A program made the position numbers and the translations under genes. The notes beneath the pieces are model-generated. The model worked only from the letters and a program-made list of their open reading frames with translations, was not told the origin of the DNA and did no database searches. A stretch of DNA of 64,000 bases from Gemmata massiliana (GTDB lineage: Bacteria; Planctomycetota; Planctomycetia; Gemmatales; Gemmataceae), in NCBI RefSeq assembly GCF_901538265.1, contig NZ_LR593886.1, positions 4,609,738-4,673,737 of the forward strand, given 5' to 3'. This document shows, one piece after another, positions 2,854 through 54,765 of the stretch (its first letter is position 1; each line of letters starts with the position of its first letter).

Positions 2854-3262
2854 TTTTTGGTCACGGTGATTGTTGTGTCGACTCGCGAACTCGGATAGCC
2901 TGCTTTTGTTTCCGTGAACGTTTAGCTCGGTGCTCTGCACCAGGCTGATGTTGCGTCAGCCGAGCTTCTACCACGGCACTCGTCTCGGGGACCGCTGTTC
3001 CAGCACCGCTGTCAAGTTGTTGGCGATCGCGATGGGGCAGGTCTGGAACAAACCCGCGGATCGTGGTTCCTGCTCCATCGCGATCGCCAACAACTTGGCG
3101 GTGCCGCGAGCGTTCCGCGAATTAGGCCGAGAAGTAAACCAAAACGGAAACCGCCCTACGATCCGGAGAGTGATCTCCGGATCGTGGCGTTTTGTGCCGG
3201 AATGCGTTCCTGCCGCAATGGGCGCGAGAGGTGGGTGGATAAACCTGCGCTGAGTTAGCGCC
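2854..3262. other. Intergenic region holding a long inverted repeat
   Basis: About 400 nt between two unknown genes that converge on it. Its main content is the hairpin-forming inverted repeat at 3013-3097 described separately. Short open frames on both strands run through the repeat and are not credible genes. Confidence 0.5.
3013..3097. repeat. 23-bp perfect inverted repeat with 39-nt spacer
   Basis: The left arm 3013-3035 (CAAGTTGTTGGCGATCGCGA, then TGG) is the exact reverse complement of 3075-3097. Outside the arms, CACCGC pairs with GCGGTG after a 3-nt bulge, so the structure extends to roughly 3005-3103. Each arm contains the palindrome GCGATCGC. There is no T-run beside it, so it is not a classical terminator. 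It could be a miniature element or a folded RNA. Confidence 0.8.
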
Positions 3263-6043: not shown

Positions 6044-6121
6044 CTTTTGTAGCCGGCCTCTGCGAGGCCGGGGAGCCACTGACTGCAGATCTCCCGGCCT
6101 CGCAGAGGCCGGCTACAAAAG
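6044..6121. repeat. REP-like palindrome, 29-bp perfect stem
   Basis: 6044-6072 (starting CTTTTGTAGCCGGCCTCTGC) is the exact reverse complement of 6093-6121, with a 20-nt loop. Each arm itself contains GGCCTCTGCGAGGCC, a smaller palindrome. It sits in the convergent gap after the helicase gene. The nested GC palindrome suggests a REP-type dispersed element that may also terminate transcription. Confidence 0.8.
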
Positions 6122-10193: not shown

Positions 10194-10574
10194 GGTGCGT
10201 CCGCTTGCCACGGCGGCCTCGGTGTCGGAATATTCGGTGACTCTTCGTGAGAGACAGCATGTCTGTAGAACTACTTCTCGTGAAAAGGTGTGAAAGACCG
10301 GGATAAACCGACAGTGGGCAACAGGTGCAGACAGATTTTCTGACAGTTAGTCGATGGGAACTCAGGCGGGAAATGAAGACATCATCGAGAGAATAAGGAT
10401 TGTGATGGAATCGTCAAAATAGTCCGGTCGTCTCACCAATGAAGTCGGGGTCCTCGTGCGGGGCGAGCCTCTGCGAATTGTGTGGTCTGTTGTATCAAAA
10501 TGCCCGGTTCGTGCCCCCCGTTCGTTCGGACCCGCCATTCTGCTAAATTAACGGCTCCCCCAGAGGCCCGGCGA
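10194..10574. other. Divergent intergenic region
   Basis: About 380 nt between the kinase gene (minus) and the Ski2-like helicase gene (plus), presumably with both promoters. The middle (10250-10430) is purine-rich and lower in GC. No gene, hairpin or repeat seen. In-frame GTG and ATG codons at 10482 and 10500 could extend the helicase but lack coding bias. Confidence 0.45.
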
Positions 10575-13109
10575 ATGAGCGCGTCCGACACTCGGTCCGA
10601 TCTCGCGACAAAGTACATCGACCAGCTCCCCTATCCGCCGTACCCGGTGCAGGAGGAGGCGCTGCTCGCGTGGTTCACGGCGGAGCAGGGGGTAATGGTC
10701 TGCGCGCCGACCGGGACCGGTAAAACGCTCATCGCGCACGCGGCGCTGTTCGAGGCACTTCACACGAACACGGTCGCGTACTACACCACGCCGCTCATCG
10801 CGCTCACCGAGCAGAAGTTCGCCGAGGTTCAGGCTGCCGCGGTACGCTGGGGCTTCAAGGCCGAGGACGTGGGGCTGGTGACGGGGAACCGCCGCGTGAA
10901 CCCGAACGCGCGCGTGCTTATCGTCGTGGCCGAAATTCTGCTTAATCGATTGCTGCACGCGGAGGGGTTCGATTTCCAGCACACGTCCGCAGTGGTGATG
11001 GACGAGTTCCACAGTTTCGCGGACCCCGAACGTGGGATCGTGTGGGAACTGTCGCTCAACATGCTCCCGAAGCACATTCGGCTGCTGTTGCTCTCTGCCA
11101 CCGTCGGCAACGCGGTCGAATTCACGAACTGGCTCGACCGGTGCCACGGGCGGCAACTCGAACTCGTCGAGGGCCGCGAGCGGAAGATCCCGCTGACGTA
11201 CCGGTGGGTGCCGGACCAGTTCCTCAACGAACTGCTCGTGGACATCGCGAAGGGCGACGACGCCACGCGCAAAACACCCGCTCTGGTGTTCGCGTTCAAT
11301 CGCGACGAGTGCTGGAACGTGGCCGAGCAGTTGAAGGGGTTGGACCTGATGAACGCGGCGCAGAAGACCGCGCTCAACAAGGAGTGCGATAAGCTCGACT
11401 GGCCCAACGGCGTCGGGCCGAAGCTCAAGCAAATGCTCCGGCGCGGGGTCGGCGTTCACCACGCTGGGCTGCTGCCCAAGTACCGGCGCGTGGTGGAGGA
11501 ACTCTTCGAGAAGAAGCTGCTCAGCGTTGCGCTGTGTACTGAAACGCTCGCGGCCGGCATTAATTTGCCCGCGCGCTCGGTGGTGCTCACGTCACTCGTG
11601 AAGGGACCATTCGGCAAAGAGAAGCTCATCGACCCGAGTACCGCGCACCAGATCTTCGGCCGCGCCGGGAGGCCGCAGTACGACACAGAGGGGTACGTCT
11701 TCGCCTACCCGGAAGAGGACGATGTGCGCATCCTCCGCTGGAAGCAGCAGTACGACCAGATCCCCGAGAACACGAAGAACCCGGGCCTGCTCAAAGCGAA
11801 GAAGGCGCTGCTCAAAAAGAAGCCGACGCGGAACTCGCAAAAGAAATACTGGACCGAGGCGGACTTCGAGCGCCTGAAGAGTGCCCCGGCGGGCCGGCTC
11901 TACAGCAAGGGGCCGCTCCCGTGGCGGTTGCTCGCGTACCTGCTGAAAGTGTCCCCGGACGTCGAAAAGATCCGCAGTGTCGTTCGCAAGCGGTTGCTCG
12001 ATCAACCGCGCATCGAAGCGGGAATGAAGCAGCTCACGCGGATGTTGACCACGCTCCACGAGAACGGGTTCGTGAAACTCGACCCGGAACCGCCGTCAAA
12101 AGAGGAGCCAACCCCTTCGCCTCCCTCCCCTGAAGGGAAGGAGAAGAAAGAGCAACCTAACCCCCTAACCCCCTTCCCTAAGAAGGAAGGGGGAACAAAA
12201 CCCTCGGTGGTTTTAAGCCCCTCTCCCTTTGGGGGAGGGGTTGGGGAGGGGTTGTTTCACCCCCCCTTCCCTTCAGGGAGGGGGGACGGGGGGGTAGGTT
12301 CTTCGCCGCCTCCACCGCCGTACACGCCGTTAACAGCAACGCCCACGCCCGAACTCGACAAATTGCTCGTGTTCCGCGCGTGTCACCCGCTGTACGGGGC
12401 GTTCCTGATTGATCTGCTCGGAGTTGCGAATCGCGAAGAGCGCCTGCAACTGCTCGAAAGCGTTCTCGAACTTCCGCGCCCGTTGTTGAAGTTTGTCCGC
12501 GTGCCGTTCGATCTGTCGCCCGGTCCGCTGCAAACAGAGAAACTCGATCCGGAACTAATCGCGAAGGGGTTAATCGTCGCGAAGGCGCCCAAAGCCGAGG
12601 GTGAGGAGGAAGAGGAAGAAGAGTGGGTGCCGTGGGACGAGCGCCCGCCGGTACTGGCGGACAAGGCGCGGATGCTGTTCGACTCGAAGTACCCCGAAGT
12701 GGGCGACTTCATGACGCAGGGCGTGTGGGCCGCCGCCGAGGTATTGAACTACGGCAACTTCAACACCTACGTCACGACTAAAGACCTGACCAAACAAGAG
12801 GGGCTGATCTTCCGACACATGCTGCGACTCATCCTGTTAACGCAAGAGTTCGAGCAACTCACCCCACCGGGACTCACCCCGGAGGACTGGAAGAAGGAAC
12901 TGGCCGAGATCGCCGACAAGCTCACGGAGATTTGTCGCACGGTGGACCCGACCAGCACGGAAGAGGCCATCAAGCGCGCCCACGGCGCCGATGTGGTGGA
13001 GGGTGAGGAGCACGCGAAGGTCGTGACCGCGAAGGCCCCCGAACCGGCTCCGCCGACCGGTATGACCGTGGAGGAGGAAGAGGACTTCAGTGCGGGCCTC
13101 GCGGATTAA
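10575..13109 (+). CDS. Ski2-like superfamily 2 DEAD/DEAH helicase with repeat-derived insert
   Basis: About 844 residues. Motif I APTGTGKT near 45, motif II DEFH near 142, SAT near 174 and motif VI-region QIFGRAGRPQ near 360 define a Ski2/Hel308-like helicase. Residues about 525-577 are a low-complexity Pro/Gly/Lys insert encoded by a MITE-like palindromic repeat (12154-12300), between the helicase core and a C-terminal helical domain with an acidic EEEEEEEW stretch. The reading frame is unbroken through the repeat. The ATG at 10575 is chosen because the helicase N-terminus begins just after it; longer starts exist at 10482 and 10500. Substrate (RNA or DNA) is not clear. Confidence 0.88.
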   Translation: MSASDTRSDLATKYIDQLPYPPYPVQEEALLAWFTAEQGVMVCAPTGTGKTLIAHAALFEALHTNTVAYYTTPLIALTEQKFAEVQAAAVRWGFKAEDVGLVTGNRRVNPNARVLIVVAEILLNRLLHAEGFDFQHTSAVVMDEFHSFADPERGIVWELSLNMLPKHIRLLLLSATVGNAVEFTNWLDRCHGRQLELVEGRERKIPLTYRWVPDQFLNELLVDIAKGDDATRKTPALVFAFNRDECWNVAEQLKGLDLMNAAQKTALNKECDKLDWPNGVGPKLKQMLRRGVGVHHAGLLPKYRRVVEELFEKKLLSVALCTETLAAGINLPARSVVLTSLVKGPFGKEKLIDPSTAHQIFGRAGRPQYDTEGYVFAYPEEDDVRILRWKQQYDQIPENTKNPGLLKAKKALLKKKPTRNSQKKYWTEADFERLKSAPAGRLYSKGPLPWRLLAYLLKVSPDVEKIRSVVRKRLLDQPRIEAGMKQLTRMLTTLHENGFVKLDPEPPSKEEPTPSPPSPEGKEKKEQPNPLTPFPKKEGGTKPSVVLSPSPFGGGVGEGLFHPPFPSGRGDGGVGSSPPPPPYTPLTATPTPELDKLLVFRACHPLYGAFLIDLLGVANREERLQLLESVLELPRPLLKFVRVPFDLSPGPLQTEKLDPELIAKGLIVAKAPKAEGEEEEEEEWVPWDERPPVLADKARMLFDSKYPEVGDFMTQGVWAAAEVLNYGNFNTYVTTKDLTKQEGLIFRHMLRLILLTQEFEQLTPPGLTPEDWKKELAEIADKLTEICRTVDPTSTEEAIKRAHGADVVEGEEHAKVVTAKAPEPAPPTGMTVEEEEDFSAGLAD
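12154..12300. repeat. MITE-like palindromic element inside helicase gene
   Basis: The element begins AACCTAACCCCCTAACCCCC and ends with an inverted version of the same sequence (GGGGGGGTAGGTT), giving terminal inverted repeats of about 40 bp around a core TTTTAAGCCCCTCTCC. Length is 147 nt, exactly 49 codons, with no stop in the helicase frame. A second, partly degraded left end precedes it at 12110-12150. A related copy lies at 53817-53918. Confidence 0.8.
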
Positions 13110-34910: not shown

Positions 34911-35462
34911 TGCCGTCGGCGAACAGCCGGTGAGGGCTCCGTCGTGCGAGGGATGAGGAACGAGCGATGGCATTCCAAATGCGCCTGTTGCTTGGTCGTG
35001 CTGATCTCTTTGATCCAACGCTTGAAAACGTTCTCGCCTACCTTGAACAGCAGACGAGCTTTGGATTAGAGGGAGACGATGGGTTACTGACGGCCTCATT
35101 TCACGTCGAAAGGTTTGGTCCCGTCTCGTGCATTCAGGCCGAAGGGATCGGAGACACGGACCAATTCGTTCTGACTGACCCGGAGCGGGGTGACGAGGTA
35201 GTCAAGTCTGTGACCGATAGTGGTGACGTTTACTGCTACGCTGCCTTCTGCCTTGTCGGGCGCGACTTAGTCGAGCGGGCTTTGCGGTATTTCGCCCAAA
35301 CTGGCTCGCGTGACTACACTCTGCGATGGCAGCCGGTTTCGGACTTGCTCCGAAGTGGTAGCGTCGATTTTGCGTGAACTCCACGCTCGCTGACCTGTGT
35401 GGTACTGCTTAACACGAGTTCGTTGACATCTCCTGCTGCCACAGGCGAACGGCCGGTGTGAG
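34851..35462. repeat. Imperfect direct repeat of PSD1 3' end flanking a small gene
   Basis: Copy A (34851-34936) covers the last codons of the PSD1 gene and its 3' flank. Copy B (35383-35462) repeats the same order of blocks with small gaps: CGCTCGCTGAC, then AACAC, GAGTTCGT, ACATC and finally GGCGAAC...CCGGTG. The region between them holds the 34967 gene. Copy B does not retain an open frame. Confidence 0.65.
34967..35377 (+). CDS. Hypothetical protein, atypical codon use, inside duplicated flanks
   Basis: A 136-residue soluble protein (MAFQMRLLLGRADLFDPTL) with mixed alpha/beta character. Codon use is less GC-rich than the neighbours (many GAT, CTT, TTT), suggesting recent acquisition. Its size and acidic middle recall small immunity-type proteins, but no family is recognised. 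It sits between two copies of the PSD1 gene 3' end, so it appears to have been inserted or captured. The ATG has GAGG about 10 nt upstream. Confidence 0.6.
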   Translation: MAFQMRLLLGRADLFDPTLENVLAYLEQQTSFGLEGDDGLLTASFHVERFGPVSCIQAEGIGDTDQFVLTDPERGDEVVKSVTDSGDVYCYAAFCLVGRDLVERALRYFAQTGSRDYTLRWQPVSDLLRSGSVDFA

Positions 35463-35557
35463 CGGCCGGTGAGAATTCCGCGCACCGAGTGGGGCGGAAG
35501 CCCTCACCGGCCGTTCGCCCAAGAACCCCACCGGCCGGCTCGCACCGGCCGTTCGCC
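35444..35557. repeat. GC-rich inverted repeat cluster
   Basis: GGCGAACGGCCGGTG (35444-35458) has two exact inverted copies, at 35505-35519 and 35543-35557, with additional GGCCGG units between. It fills the convergent gap between the captured small gene and the YcjX-like gene. It can form alternative hairpins and resembles a REP cluster; it may terminate transcription from either side. Confidence 0.65.
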
Positions 35558-52637: not shown

Positions 52638-53810
52638 ATGCGCGTTGTTGAACTTGAGGTCCGGCACGTTCGCGTCGCGTTGCGGCGAAAGGTCACGCAC
52701 GCAAGTCACGTCCGCACCGAGACGGATAACGTCGTTGTGCGGTGTAAGCTCAACGACGGCAGCGTCGGCTACGGTGAGGGCGTCCCACGCGACTACGTGA
52801 CCGGCGAGACGATCGATTTCTCGTTCGACCTGCTCAAGCGATCGGACGTGGCGAAGCAACTCGACACCGACGCCGAGAACTTCGTTCAGGCGGTTCACCT
52901 CGCGGAACGGCTCAAACTCGCGCCGCAAGCGAGCGACGACCGCGGGATTCTCGGCAACGCGGCCCGCTGTGCGCTGGAACTGGCGGTACTCGATGCGTTC
53001 GGGCGAGCTTTCGGCGAACCGCTCACGCGGGTCACGGAACTCGTGGCGCCGGAACTCTACAAGTTCCGCGATCGCGTGCAGTACAGCGGCGTCATCGGGA
53101 ACCCGCGCGGCTGGAAGAAGCGCCTGTACCCGCTCGTGTACCGGCTCGCGGGGTTCAAACAGGTCAAACTGAAGGTCGGGATCGAAGGCCAGGACGATGT
53201 GAAGCGGACGAAGACGATGCGCCGCTGGCTGGGCCGCAAGATTGATCTGCGTATCGACGCGAACGAAGCCTGGGCGCCGACCGAAGTTGCGGATCGTATC
53301 CGCGAACTGGAGCCGTTCGGCATCACGAGCGTCGAACAACCGGTGCGACACGAGGACGTTGCGTGTCTCACGGACGTGCGCAAGCAAGTGAAGACGCCAG
53401 TCATGCTCGACGAATCGCTTTGCGGCATGGTGGACGCCGAGCGCGCGGCACGCGGTGGGTGGTGCGACCTGTTCAATCTGCGGCTCTCGAAATGCGGCGG
53501 GTTCATTCCCAGTTTGCGCCTCGCGCAGTACGCGAAGCAGCACAACCTCGGTTATCAGCTCGGGTGCCAGGTTGGTGAAACGGCGATTCTCAGTGCGGCG
53601 GGTCGGCACTTTGCGGCGAGCGTGGACGACATTCGATACCTGGAAGGCAGCTACGACCGACACCTGGTGTGGGAGTCACTCGCGGTCGATGACCTCACGT
53701 TCCAGCGCACGGGATGGGCGCCCGCGCTGATCAGCAGCGGACTCGGGTTCGCGCTCGACTCGGCCCGGCTCGATTGGGTCACCAAGCGCAAGGAGACGCT
53801 GCTTGGGTGA
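52638..53810 (+). CDS. Enolase-superfamily epimerase/muconate cycloisomerase-like protein
   Basis: A 390-residue protein with an N-terminal capping domain and the barrel: QVKLKVG (KxK, near 177) with a catalytic Lys, then metal ligands in RIDANEAW near 206, VEQPV near 232 and MLDESLC near 257, and NLRLSKCGG with the second Lys. This set defines the MLE subgroup, which includes dipeptide (Ala-Glu) epimerases and o-succinylbenzoate synthase. Substrate is not determined by these motifs. The ORF extends upstream to 52521, but the ATG at 52638 begins the conserved first strand (RVVELEVRHVRVAL). The hydrolase gene follows after 4 nt. Confidence 0.88.
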   Translation: MRVVELEVRHVRVALRRKVTHASHVRTETDNVVVRCKLNDGSVGYGEGVPRDYVTGETIDFSFDLLKRSDVAKQLDTDAENFVQAVHLAERLKLAPQASDDRGILGNAARCALELAVLDAFGRAFGEPLTRVTELVAPELYKFRDRVQYSGVIGNPRGWKKRLYPLVYRLAGFKQVKLKVGIEGQDDVKRTKTMRRWLGRKIDLRIDANEAWAPTEVADRIRELEPFGITSVEQPVRHEDVACLTDVRKQVKTPVMLDESLCGMVDAERAARGGWCDLFNLRLSKCGGFIPSLRLAQYAKQHNLGYQLGCQVGETAILSAAGRHFAASVDDIRYLEGSYDRHLVWESLAVDDLTFQRTGWAPALISSGLGFALDSARLDWVTKRKETLLG

Positions 53811-53814
53811 GCAA

Positions 53815-54765
53815 ATGCAACCTACCCCCCTATCCCCCCTCCCTGAAGGGAAGGGGGGGAAAAAACTGTCGGCGGTTTTAAGCCCCTCTCCGTTTAGGGG
53901 AGGGGTTGGGGAGGGGTTACAGGCGGAGCCTCCTACCCCGGCGCCCAGTCTCTTTCCAGCTTCGGACGGCTATTCGTTCTACTTCCGACACTTCGCACCG
54001 GTGGGCGCGCCGCGTGCGCGGATCGTGGTCGTTCACGGTATTCGTAGTCACGGTGGGTGGTACACGCGGTCGTGTCAGGCGCTTGCGAACGCTGGGTTCG
54101 ATGTCTACTTTTTGGACCGGCGCGGGTCCGGACTGAATACGGCTCATCGCGGGGATTCGCCGAGCTTCCGGCGGTTGATTGACGACGTGGTGGAGTTCGT
54201 GCAGCACCTCCGTGCGTCCCACGGGTGGTTGCCGGTGTTTGTGTGTGGCATTTCGTGGGGCGGGAAACTGGCGGTCGGGCTGCCGTACCGCAAGCCGGGC
54301 CTCGTTGATGGGCTGATTTTGCTGTGTCCCGGATTGGTGCCGAAGGTCGCGCCGGCGATGCCGCAGCGGGCACGGATCGCGGTCGCGCGCGTGTTCCGTC
54401 CGTGGAAGTTCTTCCCCATTCCGCTGAACGAGCCGGACCTGTTTACCGCGTCCTCGGAATGGCGACACTACATCGACACGGAACCGCATGGCCTTCGGCT
54501 CGCGACCGCGCGGTTCCTGTTTAGCAGCTTCTCGCTCGACATCTACCTGAAGCGAGCCGCGAAGTGCGTCACTGTGCCGGCGCTCCTTGCACTCGCGGAA
54601 CACGATCGGATTATCGATAACGCGCAGACTGCGAACTTCGTGGCGCAATTCCCGGGGCCGACCGAAACGGTTACGTACCCCGGTGCGCACCACACACTTG
54701 AGTTTGAGCGCGAGGATCATCCCTGGCTCGCTGACGTGGTGCGTTGGGTGGAGAAGCAGTTGTAG
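53815..54765 (+). CDS. Alpha/beta hydrolase (lysophospholipase-like) with repeat-encoded N-terminus
   Basis: A 316-residue protein. Residues about 45-316 form an alpha/beta hydrolase: VVVHGIRSHGGW near 67 (oxyanion), CGISWGG with the nucleophile Ser near 146, LAEHDRIIDN with the Asp and GAHHTLEF with the His. This is the serine aminopeptidase/monoacylglycerol lipase-like group. Residues 2-35 are encoded by a copy of the palindromic element (53817-53918) and are Pro/Gly/Lys-rich (QPTPLSPLPEGKGGKKLSAV). A true N-terminus near codon 45 cannot be excluded. The start lies 4 nt after the epimerase stop. Confidence 0.85.
   Translation: MQPTPLSPLPEGKGGKKLSAVLSPSPFRGGVGEGLQAEPPTPAPSLFPASDGYSFYFRHFAPVGAPRARIVVVHGIRSHGGWYTRSCQALANAGFDVYFLDRRGSGLNTAHRGDSPSFRRLIDDVVEFVQHLRASHGWLPVFVCGISWGGKLAVGLPYRKPGLVDGLILLCPGLVPKVAPAMPQRARIAVARVFRPWKFFPIPLNEPDLFTASSEWRHYIDTEPHGLRLATARFLFSSFSLDIYLKRAAKCVTVPALLALAEHDRIIDNAQTANFVAQFPGPTETVTYPGAHHTLEFEREDHPWLADVVRWVEKQL
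53817..53918. repeat. Palindromic element copy forming the hydrolase 5' end
   Basis: 102 nt aligning without gaps to 12152-12253 in the helicase gene; by hand I count about 15 differences (roughly 85% identity). The core TTTTAAGCCCCTCTCC and the run GGGGAGGGGTTGGGGAGGGG are shared. Both copies are read in the same frame (LSPSPF-GGVGEGL). The right terminal inverted repeat seen in the helicase copy is not recognisable here. Confidence 0.8.

Follow-up and report, generated by a model that had tools for sequence, protein, structure and literature searches.

How does one palindromic DNA repeat come to be read as protein in two unrelated genes? The question is raised by a 64,000-nucleotide stretch of the Gemmata massiliana genome, bases 4609738-4673737 (the window), in which similar repeats are translated inside a DEAD-box helicase and again as the N-terminus of an alpha/beta hydrolase (Table 1). 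A first-pass annotation of these letters had proposed a single 147-nt, MITE-like element that adds a flexible segment to its host proteins, and had likened it to the palindromic elements of Rickettsia. We followed the repeat through the genome, through its host proteins and through the orthologues of these proteins in other species.

Table 1 Host genes and repeat units in the window
Feature	Position	Strand	Basis
Host gene 1: DEAD-box helicase, 875-aa ORF	10482..13109	+	Family searches; orthologue similarity
Type I palindromic element, 100-nt core, sense in helicase	12154..12253	+	121.1 bits, best covariance-model match of the genome; BLAST; open frame
Inverted half (unit B) of type II	12260..12300	-	95% identity over 41 nt to inverted 53819-53859; fold
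Degenerate additional unit B fragment, upstream in helicase linker	12112..12141	+	87%, E 0.001 (query: second copy)
Host gene 2: alpha/beta hydrolase	53803..54765	+	Start TTG 53803 or ATG 53815
Second copy: unit B-like left arm and type I right half, forming the hydrolase N-terminus	53819..53918	+	105.9 bits

A composite element in the helicase and a chimeric copy in the hydrolase

Reading 12154-12300 confirmed a segment of 147 nt without a stop codon in the helicase frame. The 147-nt composite is real, but the repeated unit within it is 100 nt long (type I), and the remainder consists of 6 spacer nucleotides followed by one 41-nt half, inverted, of another repeat (type II). This inverted half, unit B, supplies the terminal inverted repeat of the composite. 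The ends had been described as inverted repeats of about 40 bp; they are inverted, but looser than that description suggests, with 29 of 40 positions matching in an ungapped comparison. A default inverted-repeat search returned a different, overlapping pair rather than the composite's own ends, and arms at 12102-12141 and 12265-12304 take in the degenerate unit B fragment upstream. Folded as RNA, the composite forms a single long hairpin (-97.1 kcal/mol, z -4.67), equalled by none of 200 shuffles. The gapless 102-nt match between 12152-12253 and 53817-53918, for which about 15 differences had been counted by hand, has 16 mismatches (BLAST identity 86.7%).

In the type I element, a hairpin-bearing left arm, AACCTAACCCCCTAACCCCC, is followed by a centre of variable length, short in some copies and about 24 nt longer in others, and then by the right hairpin, which terminates in GGGGTTGGGGAGGGGTT. 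Complete type II elements are palindromes, commonly 132 nt long, whose arms span about 40 nt. Two-sided changes were seen in 1 of the 29 predicted pairs, and given this level of covariation we claim no RNA function for the elements. Two Rfam matches fell far below their gathering scores and were taken as chance.

Other inverted repeats occur in the window. A further palindrome family, with GGCGAACGGCCGG... arms, lies at 35444-35557 and is of the kind that replaces type I in the related genome G003 at L062 and L117. A perfect 29-nt inverted repeat with GTAGCCGGCCTC and GAGGCCGG at 6044-6121, outside any long ORF, resembles a GTAG-tagged REP pair, in a genome that nonetheless contains no PF01797 match. 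Another 29-nt inverted repeat surrounds GCGATCGC at 3013-3097, also outside any long ORF.

NCBIfam places the helicase nearest to Hel308-like proteins, at a score far below the cut-off of that model, and most of its orthologues align from about residue 30 onward. The insert peptide is rich in Pro, Gly, Lys and Glu, in keeping with the Pro/Gly/Lys-rich flexible segment proposed at first, and lies in a stretch predicted with low confidence: residues 511-579, which contain it, have a pLDDT of about 28-38, and the flanking blocks 82-90 (model from 23 sequences). Low pLDDT alone proves little here, because the helicase model is also low at 124-217 and 324-380. Both structure models are weak overall (mean pLDDT 50 and 61), and that of ParA is poor. 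The hydrolase copy is translated in the same frame as the helicase copy, in agreement with the first-pass annotation. Neither the hydrolase element nor the stretch that separates it from the conserved core contains an in-frame ATG, GTG or TTG. Thus, an intact hydrolase would have to start upstream of the element, unless a rarer start codon is used.

Repeat families across the genome and the family

Both elements belong to dispersed repeat families. BLAST of the whole 10.1 Mb single-contig genome gave 68 matches at E <= 1e-3. A covariance model built on 27 copies, with a threshold of E <= 1e-3, gave at least 137 matches, which correspond to at least 120 elements at at least 103 loci when merged by start position; this census is a lower bound because 150 candidates were scored. 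A 20-nt end pattern has 105 exact matches in the genome, versus 0 for the reversed pattern. Some copies (L064, L108, L112 and L116) look intergenic. Six type I copies (L092, L101, L110, L113, L115 and L118) carry a nested second stretch of 42-45 nt that keeps the frame and encodes GPREAPLTGPES or AGPVSGASRGPA.

Within the genus, 16 of 19 genomes match, that of G. massiliana included, two of them with just 2 weak matches each. Family-wide, under stricter filters (E <= 1e-8), there are matches in 32 of 95 genomes and 12 of 39 genera. A stretch of about 40 nt of the right half is shared with 18 plasmid records, 17 from rhizobial genera and 1 from a cyanobacterium; in L378-L380 the shared part is about 40-46 nt of the right hairpin. 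Since the right half lies between annotated genes in the three plasmid records that were opened (L378-L380; gene table incomplete), the hairpin may be more widely shared than the habit of residing in genes.

Genic copies are biased towards the reading frame

We examined 66 of the 69 strongest copies in the G. massiliana genome and used codon models to judge whether both flanks are coding. The flanks were clearly coding for 43 of the 66 and ambiguous for the other 23. Among the 43 clear copies, 33 are in frame and open, 7 are frame-shifted, 1 is in the same frame with a stop and 2 lie between opposite strands. Three shifted cases (L072, L080 and the hydrolase copy, L093) read by eye as N-terminal inserts right after a possible start codon. 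The same analysis was applied to the top-scoring copies from 20 regions each, a subset of their matches, in two further genomes of the genus, G003 and G001. Of 22 copies examined in G003, 11 were ambiguous and 10 of the 11 clear ones are in frame. G001 is a draft with gaps inside elements; 21 copies were examined, 9 were ambiguous and 4 of the 12 clear ones are in frame. The in-frame habit proposed for genic copies therefore holds in G. massiliana and G003, but not in the gap-ridden G001. Runs of N lie inside the G001 elements L322, L316 and L300, so drafts may mis-assemble these elements, and the G001 frame breaks are likely to be assembly errors. The RNase R insert of G001 (L245) is the G. 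massiliana insert with a broken frame and stops.

Simulated random insertion of the consensus into the G. massiliana loci left 24% of loci open when the net length was in frame and 0.7% when it was not. Against the 24%, the binomial p value is 8e-13 for G. massiliana and 6e-6 for G003. An ORF that spans the element and extends 150 nt or more to either side is present in 54 of 66 copies in G. massiliana, 21 of 22 in G003 and 11 of 21 in G001, compared with 44% for random insertion. The consensus itself is open in just two of six frames, one per strand, and these are open in 59 and 57 of the 66 G. massiliana copies. Two in-frame copies depart from these open frames, L097 and L076, the latter after losing 1 nt; all others use them. 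When copies of 100 and 124 nt are set aside, a length of 1 mod 3 is found in 17 of 27 copies of G. massiliana (p 0.0015) and in 3 of 7 of G001. We also read 20 stand-alone lower-scoring matches, most of them type II and one, L292, a partial type I; their lengths are a multiple of three in 16 of the 20, and 8 of the 11 clear ones are in frame, a count that has no null.

Host proteins

Domain searches on selected hosts used Pfam and NCBIfam for 10 proteins and Pfam for 20 more; names that go beyond the family name are putative. Inserts lie within or between the domains of RNase R, ParA, a UvrA-family protein (L097), a NuoL-like antiporter subunit, RecD2, an aldehyde dehydrogenase and UbiD. Further hosts are a ketoacyl synthase, a PP-loop ATPase, FmdB, DcuC, an RND permease and three PSD1 proteins. 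Among the 20 proteins searched with Pfam, L105 and L110 had no match at 1e-10. A CheA-like kinase carries three copies in one protein, and one loop of the three PSD1 proteins has received inserts in both orientations. Despite the insert, RNase R (635.6 versus 597.85), FmdB (385 versus 327.8) and DcuC (200.5 versus 100) exceed their NCBIfam cut-offs; the RND permease (845 versus 1250) and ModF (310.7 versus 459) fall below theirs, to which we attribute no cause. For the 10 host proteins, no NCBIfam family listed aligns best within an insert. The insert-bearing ParA shares 76-96% identity with 17 orthologues of the genus; where its insert lies, two aligned stretches of the solved chain 8ray_B are separated by 3 residues. 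The RNase R insert falls at the junction of two aligned stretches near residues 383-395 of the solved chain 8cdu_C.

These hosts bear on the view that we are dealing with ordinary intergenic REP or MITE repeats, which appear genic just through the spurious long ORFs of a GC-rich genome. Such repeats would fit the intergenic-looking copies, the intergenic position of the right half in the three plasmid records opened, the 44% of random insertions that yield a through-ORF and the G001 copies, most of the clear ones being out of frame. They would hardly be expected in conserved enzymes, where the inserts fall within identified domains or separate them and the two halves of the gene share a frame, nor between orthologous flanks whose lengths change by multiples of three, and we regard this explanation as very improbable.

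Turnover of the inserts between species

The inserts are absent from many orthologues. None of the relatives aligned for the helicase contains the type I peptide (judged by eye, leaving out the split L128 and with L138 truncated). The helicase linker of L125, from G051 in another genus, contains a proline/glycine-rich insert of a different kind. Among 14 relatives within the genus, five helicase linkers (L220, L221, L222, L223 and L232) fold strongly, with z of -5 or lower relative to mononucleotide shuffles, and so hold other palindromes. Those of G003 (L227) and G001 (L228) have no strong fold, in proteins whose N-terminal part is 96 and 98% identical, and the linkers of G004 and G016 consist of unit B or right-half-like sequence. 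At the hydrolase N-terminus, 12 loci were read and this repeat family is present in 2, those of G. massiliana and G003, measuring 124 nt in the latter; the proline/glycine-rich segment of G002 is a different one, and the peptides of the other nine loci reveal no such element. Since the type I peptide is missing from the aligned helicases and the family is present in 2 of 12 hydrolase loci, the segment is not, on these alignments, an ancestral and conserved part of either protein. The orthologue comparison thus agrees with the first reading of the segment as an addition. What that reading did not foresee are the further palindrome families, the inserts nested within others, the presence of elements in proteins of such high conservation as RNase R and ParA, and the differing palindromes in the loops of sister species.

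The ParA insert of G. massiliana is missing from the other 17 sequences of the genus. At this loop, L259 alone has a strongly folding insert; the other 16 of the 17 relatives have a weaker fold or an interval of just 18 nt. The RNase R loop folds strongly in 8 of 16 relatives (L237-L239, L241-L244 and L248). The length changes preserve the frame: interval differences are multiples of three in 17 of 17 relatives for ParA (computed by hand for the eleven with 18-nt intervals), 15 of 16 for RNase R and 11 of 14 for the helicase.

For a comparison of three species, 16 G. massiliana sites were sought in G001 and G003, and 15 were retained, L067 being left out because its matches were just 74-78% identical and several per genome. 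Between G. massiliana and G003, 14 of the 15 intervals differ by a multiple of three (p 2e-6) and one, L117, by 2 nt; the comparison with G001 gives multiples of three at 7 of 15, and 3 of the 8 misses contain Ns. Palindromes turn over between these close species. By eye, and with folds scored against mononucleotide shuffles, two G003 sites (L097 and L105) keep the same element and L064 has a related type I composite. A different palindrome stands at 6 of the 15 (L062, L065, L081, L092, L098 and L117), L114 has a degenerate repeat, and at 5 of the 15 (L061, L066, L071, L102 and L106) there is no clear palindrome. At the last five, the net gain is 66, 72, 75, 78 or 126 nt, so that the empty sites are not clean. 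Orientation can also flip at one protein position, from sense in G. massiliana (L087) to antisense in G003 (L185).

One may ask whether the inserts are functional linkers, such as mRNA hairpins or binding peptides, that are kept for a role rather than tolerated. Palindromes do recur in the same loops of several species and fold far more strongly than shuffles. A linker with a role would sit poorly with unrelated host proteins, with the change of family and orientation at a single site, with the five G003 sites that have no clear palindrome and with the 16 of 17 ParA relatives that have no strongly folding insert, and we consider this role improbable. A second proposal tries to explain the same turnover: Gemmata loops might be landing pads, in which unrelated palindromes swap by recombination or template switching with the frame kept, rather than by simple insertion. 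We put this forward tentatively, as a possibility on the doubtful side. If it were true, close species would carry the same enzyme with different repeat-made loops.

Origin and spread of the elements

The reading that we favour, with a probability of roughly 0.8, is that these are mobile or formerly mobile palindromes whose net change in gene length is usually a multiple of three, and which survive in an open phase as an extra protein stretch. Palindromes would enter genes by transposition or recombination, with the help of a putative mobilising enzyme. Copies that shift the frame, or that fall in structured parts, would be lost, and the survivors would be those in loops, domain linkers and N-termini that lie in an open phase. 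The outcome would be an extra, probably disordered stretch of about 33-50 residues rich in Pro, Gly, Lys and Glu, and the insert peptides are presumably translated and tolerated. We infer that the frame bias was made by purifying selection and not by targeting.

The location of the copies could also reflect mechanism, and not selection alone, if insertion were directed to transcribed or looped genic DNA. The preference for genes, which is the opposite of that of most REPs as excerpted from PMC3733652, would fit this, as would the reuse of one loop in both orientations in the three PSD1 proteins. Codon phase, however, would hardly be sensed by a DNA-level mechanism and would be explained by selection, and reused loops may just be tolerant ones. 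We therefore think directed insertion unlikely, and return to mobile palindromes filtered by selection.

As to what moved them, PF01797 (RAYT / Y1_Tnp) had 0 matches in the G. massiliana genome, with the control positive in 5 of 14 genomes; this result rules out a RAYT as the mobiliser of these elements in this genome. No autonomous parent with the same ends was found among the 100 of 105 exact ends listed. Among these ends, convergent ends at transposon spacing (3.2-3.3 kb) just join separate known copies of the element; convergent end pairs 54-309 nt apart were also seen. Outside the ParA site, no consistent target-site duplication was found in flanks or orthologue alignments. In G001, the ParA site has a net gain of 105 nt and, by eye, a possible 5-nt duplication matching at 4 of 5 bases. 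With this site alone hinting at one, target-site duplication was not adopted as a feature of the elements.

Comparison with known systems

Protein-coding palindromes are best known from intracellular Rickettsia, and the Gemmata elements extend them to planctomycetes with large genomes, in high copy number and in highly conserved enzymes. They amount to a replicated natural experiment on which protein loops can accommodate 35-50 additional residues, and raise the testable question of how palindromes enter genes, and replace one another there, without a known transposase. For annotation, such inserts resemble novel domains; for assembly, a draft breaks at them. None of the titles listed from the open-licence PMC literature reports in-frame palindromic elements in Gemmata, and the G. 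massiliana genome paper uses the word 'palindromic' solely for CRISPR.

In the excerpts of the sources cited, the Rickettsia palindromic elements (RPE) of Ogata, Claverie and others are about 105-150 nt long, have an open frame and are fused in frame into unrelated conserved proteins (PMC10969869, PMC2229807), with 44 integrations in R. conorii; a guanylate kinase of Rickettsia that contains an RPE has been assayed (PMC2229807), and the excerpted review considers a comparable process in other prokaryotes conceivable (PMC10969869). The Gemmata palindromes are similarly about 100-150 nt and in frame in unrelated proteins, which supports the analogy drawn at first and widens its scale (33 of 43 and 10 of 11 clear copies in frame). 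Unlike RPE, they occur in another phylum, are GC-rich, number at least 120 in the G. massiliana genome, are read in both orientations and differ from one another at one orthologous loop; the likeness to RPE is one of size, form and frame.

Coding palindromes have also been described in mitochondrial genes of Nematomorpha, where some occupy a site shared by several species (excerpts of PMC6649704). There, both arms code for conserved amino acids, whereas in Gemmata segments are added from dispersed repeat families. Among MITEs with open frames are ERIC/RU and the 107-bp Correia element, and in-frame fusions are known (excerpts of PMC2229807, PMC2759123 and PMC10969869). Like the MITEs of these excerpts, the Gemmata elements are small with inverted-repeat ends (type II arms of about 40 nt); unlike them, they have yielded no parent transposon and no firm target duplication, and in-frame genic copies are the rule in G. 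massiliana and G003.

REPs, as excerpted from PMC3733652, are 20-40 bp long and predominantly extragenic, and the GTAG ones are linked to RAYTs. The GTAG/CGTC-tagged REPs form hairpins, often as inverted pairs, and some are intragenic (Opitutus terrae, uvrA), possibly as linkers or loops. The paper mentions REPs for Planctomycetes, and the word 'Gemmata' occurs nowhere in it. The Gemmata repeats likewise form hairpins and have a UvrA-family gene among their hosts. They differ from the REPs so described in their units of about 100-138 nt, in being mainly intragenic in G. massiliana and G003, and in a genome without PF01797. By eye, type I ends in TTAGGTT on the other strand, unlike GTAG REPs, and type II ends in GTAGGTT, but paired in a palindrome. 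By analogy, the Gemmata elements would thus work like RPE and intragenic REPs, yet depart from REPs with respect to both RAYT and GTAG.
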